A stretch of 64,000 nt of DNA from Candidatus Meridianibacter frigidus (GTDB taxonomy: Bacteria; Vulcanimicrobiota; Vulcanimicrobiia; Vulcanimicrobiales; Vulcanimicrobiaceae): positions 62,001 through 126,000 of the forward strand of contig QHBJ01000025.1 in assembly GCA_003243975.1 (NCBI GenBank), in the 5' to 3' direction. The position numbers and the translations under genes are program-made. This document shows positions 41,995-44,312 of this stretch, piece by piece (the first letter of the stretch is position 1; every line of letters starts with the position of its first letter). Under the pieces are notes generated by a model. The model ran no database searches. It was not told the DNA's origin and saw only the letters and a program-made list of their open reading frames with translations.

Positions 41995-42651
41995 TTAGCT
42001 CTCGAAGTCTACCGAAAAGGTTCGCCCGAGTGCAACCAGCAAGGCCGTCTTTGCCTCGCCGAAAGTCACGTGCCGCCCGGTTTCCCGGTTCAGAGAGGTG
42101 ATACCGCGCTCCGGAAGTCCGCACGGGGTTATCAGACGGTCGTAATTAAGATCGGTGCAGGCGTTAAATGCAATGCCATGTAGCGAGGTCATGCGCTGCA
42201 CCGCCAAGCCGATCGCGCAGATTTGATTTCGACCAACCCAAACGCCGGCATGCTCGCTCCACCGCTCGGCGGCGACGCCGAAGTGCGCGCACGTCTCGAT
42301 TACGGCGCCTTCCAGCGCGCGCACCAACGGTACCACCTCGCGAAAGCGCTGCAGCTTGCGAATGGGATAAACCACCACTTGCCCAGGTCCGTGGTAGGTG
42401 ACGTCGCCGCCACGCTCGATTTCAACCAGATCGACACCGCGTGAAGCCAGCATTTCGCGCGACAGCAGAACGTTCTGTTGCCGTGCATTTCGACCAAGAG
42501 TAATAACCGGGTCGTGTTCGACCACAATCCAGGTATCGGAATTTTTTCCGCTTGCGACGCGCTCGTGAATGCGGTGCTGCAAATCCCAGACCTCACGATA
42601 AGGCCGCCGCCCCAGATCCAAAAGCCGTGTCTTGCTTGTATCGACAGGCAT
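41995..42651 (-). CDS. lipB: Octanoyltransferase LipB, catalytic Lys replaced by Gln
   Basis: LipB moves octanoyl from acyl-carrier protein to lipoyl domains. ITLGRNA, the conserved RGGDVTYHGPGQVVVYP (about residues 80-96) and LITPCGLPERGITSL with the nucleophile Cys177 identify the family. In characterised LipB enzymes a lysine 34 residues before this Cys (E. coli Lys135/Cys169, M. tuberculosis Lys142/Cys176) completes the dyad. Here residue 143, exactly 34 before Cys177, is Gln in GRNQICAIGL (codon CAA at 42223-42225). Activity may be altered or the base supplied otherwise. The gene begins nine bases after a large palindrome and is coupled to lipA. Confidence 0.92.
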   Translation of the reverse strand: MPVDTSKTRLLDLGRRPYREVWDLQHRIHERVASGKNSDTWIVVEHDPVITLGRNARQQNVLLSREMLASRGVDLVEIERGGDVTYHGPGQVVVYPIRKLQRFREVVPLVRALEGAVIETCAHFGVAAERWSEHAGVWVGRNQICAIGLAVQRMTSLHGIAFNACTDLNYDRLITPCGLPERGITSLNRETGRHVTFGEAKTALLVALGRTFSVDFES

Positions 42652-42660
42652 TCAGTTCTC

Positions 42661-42817
42661 GTCGGCGGGAGCGGGGCGTTCGCCGGGCGGACTCCAACTT
42701 TCGCGCAAAAGACACGATGTCGAAACGTACCTTTTTTTGCGCGAAAGTGGCGTCAGTAGGAAACTCCATGGAGGGAATTTCCGAACGGCGACCGGCGAAC
42801 GCCCCGCTCCCGCTGGC
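42661..42817. repeat. Large compound palindrome in the lpdA-lipB gap
   Basis: The outer arms 42665-42686 and 42792-42813 are perfectly complementary over 22 bp and extend as G-U/GC pairs to about 42661/42817. Inside, ACTTTCGCGCAAAA at 42697-42710 pairs perfectly with TTTTGCGCGAAAGT at 42735-42748, and CTCCATGGAG at 42764-42773 is a palindrome. The predicted RNA is a long stem enclosing two hairpins (a three-way junction). It ends nine bases before the lipB start on the minus strand. No target-site duplication or coding capacity was found. Confidence 0.7.
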
Positions 42818-42857
42818 GCCGCCCGCGGGGGATATGCCACGGACCCTTTCGGGTTCG

Positions 42858-44312
42858 TCATTTGGCTCCAGCTAGGAGGGGCGCTTTGGGCTTCGGGTTG
42901 ACGAGATGGATGGCTTTGTTGTGCATGAGTTCGGCGGCATCCATGATGCTTTCGGTCAGCGTCGGATGCGGGTGAATGGAGAGGCCGATATCTTCAATGG
43001 TTGCGCCCATCTCCAGCGCGATAACGCCCTCGCCGATAAGCGATTCAGCTTGTGGTGCGACGATGTGCATACCCAGCAGTTGATCGCTCTTGGCATCGCC
43101 GACCAATTTGATGAGCCCGTCGGTTTCGTTCATGGTGCGCGCGCGGCCGCTGGCAGCCAGCGGGAACTTGCCGGTCCTGACCTCATGCCCCGCAGCTTTG
43201 GCTTCCTCTTCGGAAAGGCCGACGGTTGCTACCTCCGGATCGGTATAGACGCAATTTGGAATGGCCACCGGGTCGAACGCGGCCGAACGGTCTCCGCTAA
43301 TGACCTCGGCAGCAATCACGCCTTGTTTCATCGCGCGATGGGCAAGAAGCGGCATTCCGGTAACGTCGCCGATTGCGTAAACCCCGCTGATCTTGGTGCG
43401 CAGCTGCGCATCGACGGTAATAAAACCGCGATCGTCGGTCTTCAGGCCGGCGGCTTGCAGATTGAGTCCGTCGGTGACCGGTTTCCGCCCGACCGCCACA
43501 AGTACCATGTCGAAGTCGCGCGTTTCGTCCTTGCCCCCAGTGCCTTCGCCCTTGAACGTCGCCTTCACAACCTTGCCGTCTTTCTTAATGTCCCCGACGG
43601 TCGTGGAGAGCATGATGTCCACGCCCTGTTTTTTCAGAATGCGCAGCATGGTCTTACCGATCTCTAAGTCGGTTCCGGTCAGGATCTGCGGCATGGCTTC
43701 GATCACTAATGTCTTGGCGCCCATGCGCGTGAACACGGTCGCAAACTCAAGACCAATGACCCCGCCCCCGATTACGAGCAGGTTCTTTGGAATACGCCTG
43801 AGCTGCACCGCGTCGTCGGAGTTAATGATGTATTCGCCGTCGCGTGGCCAAGCTTTGACATCTATGGGTGCGCTGCCGGTGGCAATAACGACCGCCTCTT
43901 TGGCGGTGTATGTTTCGGTCTTGCCGTCCTTGCTCTTGACTTCGACTTGCTTTGGGGCGATAAAGGCGGCGGAGCCGTAGGCGAAGGCGACGTTGTTGGC
44001 TTTGAAAAGCGTCTTTATGCCTCCAACGTTCGCGTTGACAACATCGGTCTTAAATTTTGCCACGCCCTCACGGTCAATCTGTGCCTGAGGAACCTTAATA
44101 CCGATTTCAGCGGCATGGTTGATGTGGCGCGTCACCTCGCCGACGTGCAGCAGCGCTTTGGTTGGGATGCAGCCCCAGTTCAAACAAACCCCGCCTACCT
44201 CGTCGCGGTCGATGCAGATAACGCTCTTGCCGAGCTGCCCCAAACGAATCGCGGCGTGATACCCTCCCGGTCCCGCGCCGATGACAACCGAGTCTACTTG
44301 ATGTTCAGCCAA
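42858..44312 (-). CDS. lpdA: Dihydrolipoyl dehydrogenase (E3 / L protein)
   Basis: The enzyme reoxidises dihydrolipoyl groups of GcvH and of 2-oxoacid dehydrogenase complexes using FAD and NAD. IGAGPGGYHAAIRLGQLG is the FAD fold, GGVCLNWGCIPTKALLH the redox disulfide C-x4-C, IGGGVIGLEFATVF the NAD fold and HPHPTLTESI the C-terminal His motif from the dimer partner. 484 aa. It is the first gene of the minus-strand lipoate cluster and supplies the missing L-protein of the glycine cleavage system at 3-7.5 kb. Confidence 0.96.
   Translation of the reverse strand: MAEHQVDSVVIGAGPGGYHAAIRLGQLGKSVICIDRDEVGGVCLNWGCIPTKALLHVGEVTRHINHAAEIGIKVPQAQIDREGVAKFKTDVVNANVGGIKTLFKANNVAFAYGSAAFIAPKQVEVKSKDGKTETYTAKEAVVIATGSAPIDVKAWPRDGEYIINSDDAVQLRRIPKNLLVIGGGVIGLEFATVFTRMGAKTLVIEAMPQILTGTDLEIGKTMLRILKKQGVDIMLSTTVGDIKKDGKVVKATFKGEGTGGKDETRDFDMVLVAVGRKPVTDGLNLQAAGLKTDDRGFITVDAQLRTKISGVYAIGDVTGMPLLAHRAMKQGVIAAEVISGDRSAAFDPVAIPNCVYTDPEVATVGLSEEEAKAAGHEVRTGKFPLAASGRARTMNETDGLIKLVGDAKSDQLLGMHIVAPQAESLIGEGVIALEMGATIEDIGLSIHPHPTLTESIMDAAELMHNKAIHLVNPKPKAPLLAGAK

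Follow-up and report, generated by a model that had tools for sequence, protein, structure and literature searches.

The palindrome between lpdA and lipB

The window analysed here, a stretch of DNA of 64 kb, carries the genes lpdA and lipB on its minus strand, in an order that is conserved among relatives, and between them lies a compound palindrome. The two genes and the parts of the palindrome are as follows, P1 being the pair of outer arms and P2 and P3 the hairpins of the core.

41995–42651, minus strand: lipB, the downstream gene
42660–42689, minus strand: outer arm near lipB (3' arm of P1 on the core strand), perfect part 42665–42686
42671–42808, minus strand: match to covariance model R1, 99.9 bits, covering the core and the inner part of the arms
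42697–42748, minus strand: core hairpin P3, arms 42697–42710 and 42735–42748, pairing 14/14
42711–42721, minus strand: inner hairpin GACACGATGTC inside P3, apical loop CGA in the window copy and GGA in most copies
42756–42759, plus strand: GTAG tag adjoining hairpin P2, on the strand with the GGA loop
42759–42782, minus strand: core hairpin P2, read on the plus strand as GGAAACTCC and GGAATTTCC with loop ATGGAG
42789–42818, minus strand: outer arm on the lpdA side (5' arm of P1 on the core strand), perfect part 42792–42813
42858–44312, minus strand: lpdA, the upstream gene

The outer arms are paired at 27 of 30 positions and, with their perfect stretch of 22 bp, the fully paired inner hairpin and the short third hairpin, they bear out the size and perfection that the preliminary description of this DNA had ascribed to the structure. 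That description was also correct in placing it about nine bases from the lipB start (ATG at 42651, palindrome from 42660/42661) and in finding no close relative nearby: no second convincing copy was found inside the 64-kb window, and copies exist elsewhere in the genome and in relatives. Among 60 windows simulated with a dinucleotide model the longest perfect arms were 15 bp, as against 22 bp in the real window, and the folding z-score of the palindrome is approximately −8 on both strands. No Rfam family corresponds to it: the best hits score 23.6 and 14.5 bits, where the gathering scores are 268 and 145.1.

The family, its core and its arms

A DNA search of the same genome revealed a second clear copy (C9:15117), whose core is similar and whose outer arms differ, together with three weaker copies. 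A covariance model built from 20 copies matches 59 of the 99 genomes of the window's family, so that the genome-wide search proposed in the preliminary description has yielded many copies; across the phylum (149 genomes) the same model has no matches outside this family except in four genomes of a single sister family within the same order. According to named records, the carriers belong to Candidatus Eremiobacterota, a phylum of soil bacteria. Open-licence papers on palindromic repeats in Eremiobacterota contained nothing on this element, and a search of a viral contig collection with the exact core pattern gave no match; the palindrome is apparently one copy of an undescribed repeat family in this phylum. 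With deeper scoring, the number of copies per carrier genome ranges from one to at least about 45, the latter in genome G025, and is at least about five in the window's genome, all of these being lower bounds. Most of the genomes surveyed are fragmented MAGs and, because several G025 copies lie close to contig ends (C11, C22, C31, C33 and others), assemblies are probably broken at the palindromes and copy numbers underestimated. Assembly artefact was rejected as an explanation for the family as a whole, since independent assemblies and sister species have it in common. One locus at a contig start (L170, G024:C118) has near-perfect arms of 172 bp and is itself probably an assembly hairpin artefact.

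Overall, the element measures 150–210 bp and consists of a conserved core of ~100 nt inside copy-specific arms. Read on the strand that carries the TCC loop, its layout is a P1 arm, a short joining segment, P2, the motif YCCTRCTC, P3 (which contains an internal loop and ends in a small hairpin at its apex) and the other P1 arm. A simple pattern recognised the apical loop of P3 in 64 copies, and in 60 of these it reads TCC on the core strand; in the window copy it is TCG. On the opposite (GGA) strand, 82 of the 91 copies that were folded have GGA in the P2 loop, and in 86 of the 91 P2 is preceded by a GYAG tag; no second tag was seen at P3.

The pairing of the core is well supported by covariation, an analysis that the preliminary description had also proposed. 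Changes on both sides were found at 18 of 26 core pairs, and 96.5% of core-pair cells pair, far above both the shuffled controls (76.7%) and those in which the partners were slid (34–56%). Copies and covariation, whose lack would according to that description have left only chance or an assembly artefact, are thus present in abundance. When eight rows of orthologous copies from G024 and G025 were summed, substitutions numbered 6/775 in the core, 70/639 in the arms and 264/3166 in the flanks, the last being largely gene ends; between sister species the core therefore evolves about 10 times more slowly than its flanks. This low divergence is not due to homogenisation among copies, because paralogous cores within G025 differ by a mean of 12.6%.

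The arms behave quite differently from the core. They are 20–45 bp long (median 38 bp over 91 copies) and near-perfect, with 3128 Watson–Crick pairs and 255 mismatches in the same 91 copies, and their sequences are unrelated from locus to locus. Between orthologous copies of G024 and G025, arm changes are mirrored on both sides, including indels and multi-base blocks. In 12 ortholog pairs, two-sided change was counted at 60 arm positions and one-sided change at 46; the count was ungapped and ran from the core outwards, so that indels inflate some rows.

Gene ends and the strand that folds

Gene context, as given by a home-made codon-score finder, was convergent for 41 of 91 copies, tandem for 32 and divergent for two, and the distance to a stop codon is typically 0–20 nt. 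The orientation of the core relative to the majority coding strand, taken as replication polarity, was not significantly biased (20 vs 12, p = 0.2). The lpdA–lipB gap, whose comparison among relatives had likewise been suggested at the outset, is ≤59 nt in 34 relatives and contains an intact element in eight genomes, the sense strand being TCC in five and GGA in three. At this locus the element has been gained or lost as a unit; G050 has a one-armed remnant, and G065 has arms without a core. The preliminary description had supposed that the structure might mask the lipB ribosome-binding site or serve as a processing signal for that transcript. This is not upheld: most copies stand at other genes, usually just past stop codons, both orientations occur at lpdA–lipB, and most relatives are without the element there.

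A few loci have additional palindromes or hairpins. Another palindromic repeat, with ends resembling TGTCATCCTGA...GGATGACA, flanks or replaces the element at L057 and L059 (G019), L104 (G040) and L233 (G056), the last being the lpdA–lipB gap of G056, which is filled by a simple palindrome with ends of this kind. In G077 (L088, 1323–1637) two copies lie in opposite orientation ~40 nt apart, and the second copy of the window's genome is followed at ~5130–5170 of L020 by an A-run and a GC-rich hairpin.

Placement at convergent and tandem 3' ends, near absence between divergent genes and a strong hairpin on both strands are what would be expected of a bidirectional transcription terminator and nothing more. 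However, no T-run follows the arms, the T fraction being 0.12–0.29 at every position, and none was found in the window region either; ordinary intrinsic termination, in which a U-tract follows the stem, is therefore not supported. Nor would a terminator need a conserved core of ~100 nt with fixed loops and a tag, and we consider this explanation unlikely.

Most arm mismatches read A.C, T.C or C.C on the TCC strand and hence the milder G.U, G.A or G.G on the GGA strand (175 vs 59), a bias that tracks core orientation whether the gene context is convergent, sense or antisense. In the P2 hairpins of copies from G008, G016 and G017 (alignment A1), TC/CT replaces Watson–Crick pairs, which gives tandem G.A on the GGA strand. 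Together, these observations point to selection or bias acting on the folded GGA strand, as RNA or single-stranded DNA, and a strand-biased mutation process may be an alternative source. Two aspects of this asymmetry count against the gene-end role proposed below: a plain 3'-UTR function would not predict milder mismatches on the GGA strand irrespective of gene direction, and of the 32 tandem contexts only eight have the GGA strand as sense, the TCC strand being sense in 24.

A folded GGA strand might also bind CsrA through its GGA loops and so work as a small RNA or UTR sponge. The GGA of the P2 loop and the mismatch pattern would both suit such a function, loops such as CAUGGAUG resemble known CsrA sites, and CsrA is encoded in 81 of the 99 genomes. 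Yet genera that lack the element have CsrA just as often, so that its presence does not discriminate carriers from non-carriers, and one element-bearing genus (g14) is represented by a genome that is 97% complete and has no CsrA match (G042). In addition, the P3 loop of the window copy is CGA, no promoter-like site was found near that copy, and the GGA strand is seldom sense in tandem contexts, as noted above; a sponge is accordingly, in our judgement, quite improbable. Neither genome of genus g14 (G041 and G042) gave a CsrA match, though most of the family has CsrA.

Inversion of the core and the origin of the family

The element resembles the REP, BIME and REPIN sequences (GTAG and CGTC super-families) in having a GYAG tag beside a short hairpin, compensatory stems and multiple copies, as well as in its intergenic position downstream of genes in convergent and tandem contexts (PMC3733652). 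Some REP dimers have been reported inside palindromes (PMC3733652). A miniature transposon of this type, moved by a RAYT (Y1_Tnp) single-strand transposase, would account for the tag, for the gene-end placement and for milder mismatches on one strand, which are expected if one DNA strand must fold. REPs of the GTAG super-family are, however, units of 20–40 bp that occur alone or as tagged dimers, whereas the present element is compound and 150–210 bp long, with a core that can be flipped and private arms of 20–45 bp that are not conserved ends. Furthermore, PF01797 was found in only four of the 99 genomes, as against 59 for the element, and not in the window's genome. Its absence from most carriers largely refutes a REP with a resident RAYT, and we hold a REP/REPIN origin to be as improbable as the CsrA sponge.

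Other repeat classes also fit incompletely. In MITEs the terminal inverted repeats are conserved between copies, whereas here the arms differ and only the core is conserved. ERIC and YPAL are intergenic palindromes of roughly 130–170 bp found at gene ends in enterobacteria, for which we know of no transposase of their own; they are gene-end palindromes of similar size, but their whole sequence is conserved. Fungal mitochondria contain dispersed, mobile double-hairpin elements in intergenic DNA, in which, to our knowledge, neither private enclosing arms nor a flipping core has a counterpart.

Arms that differ completely between loci would also be produced by a selfish element that made an inverted copy of its target at insertion. 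Two G024 loci without a core keep one arm-like flank, as such a process might leave it (the query for empty sites, of 1186 bases, covered the first three of eight listed G025 loci). However, the spacer there is very short in the outgroup G026, so that the core-less G024 sites look like deletion remnants and not like pre-insertion sites. The loss of the core at lpdA–lipB in G065, while its congeners G064 and G066 retain it, weakens this explanation further, as does the strong constraint on the core at fixed sites, and we regard it as very improbable. No insertion with target duplication was seen, the G026 outgroup being too diverged at the core-less sites, and no transposase partner was found. 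The preliminary description had offered selection or the recent insertion of a small mobile element. Selection and a small dispersed element are supported by presence in 59 of 99 genomes, by covariation and by the slow evolution of the core; recency is not, since sister species have copies at the same loci.

At two of eight loci compared between G024 and G025 the core is inverted in place, both flanks matching and standing in reverse order relative to the core, and same-locus inversion was also observed between G080 and G079 and, at lpdA–lipB, between the window copy and that of G025. The published analogue is template switching between inverted repeats, which is reported to homogenise their arms and to invert the spacers between them (PMC8794818; PMC8604942). 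Both signatures, mirrored arm changes and spacer inversion, occur here at orthologous loci. The likeness to template-switch hairpins extends to multi-base compensatory changes; the difference is that those hairpins are scattered mutation events (PMC8794818; PMC8604942), whereas here one conserved spacer family shows these changes at many loci across an order. From this signature of arms and core we infer, indirectly, that template switching between the arms is the mechanism.

Our current working hypothesis, which we consider reasonably probable, is that the palindrome belongs to a non-autonomous, order-specific family of intergenic hairpins in which copy-private P1 arms surround a conserved P2/P3 core. 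Template switching by DNA polymerase, or else conversion, between the arms would keep them complementary and would also flip the core, and the host would use each copy as an orientation-tolerant hairpin at gene ends. Such a role, which we infer from placement and constraint, would most likely be that of an RNA 3'-end or transcript-boundary structure or of a protein-bound DNA hairpin. A more far-reaching version, possible but doubtful, would make the family an order-wide class of gene-end elements capable of flipping: the selected core would sit in private arms that correct themselves, the complementarity of the arms would matter and not their sequence, and a core-binding factor would read a single folded strand whichever way the element lies in the chromosome.

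The family constitutes a strongly conserved and unexplained gene-end element in a largely uncultured phylum, and the covariance model makes it searchable. It would also provide, across many loci, a natural record in bacteria of how template switching acts between inverted repeats, with arms corrected and spacers inverted. Since each copy has its own arms and a constrained core, the mutation process can be told apart from selection at dozens of sites per genome.
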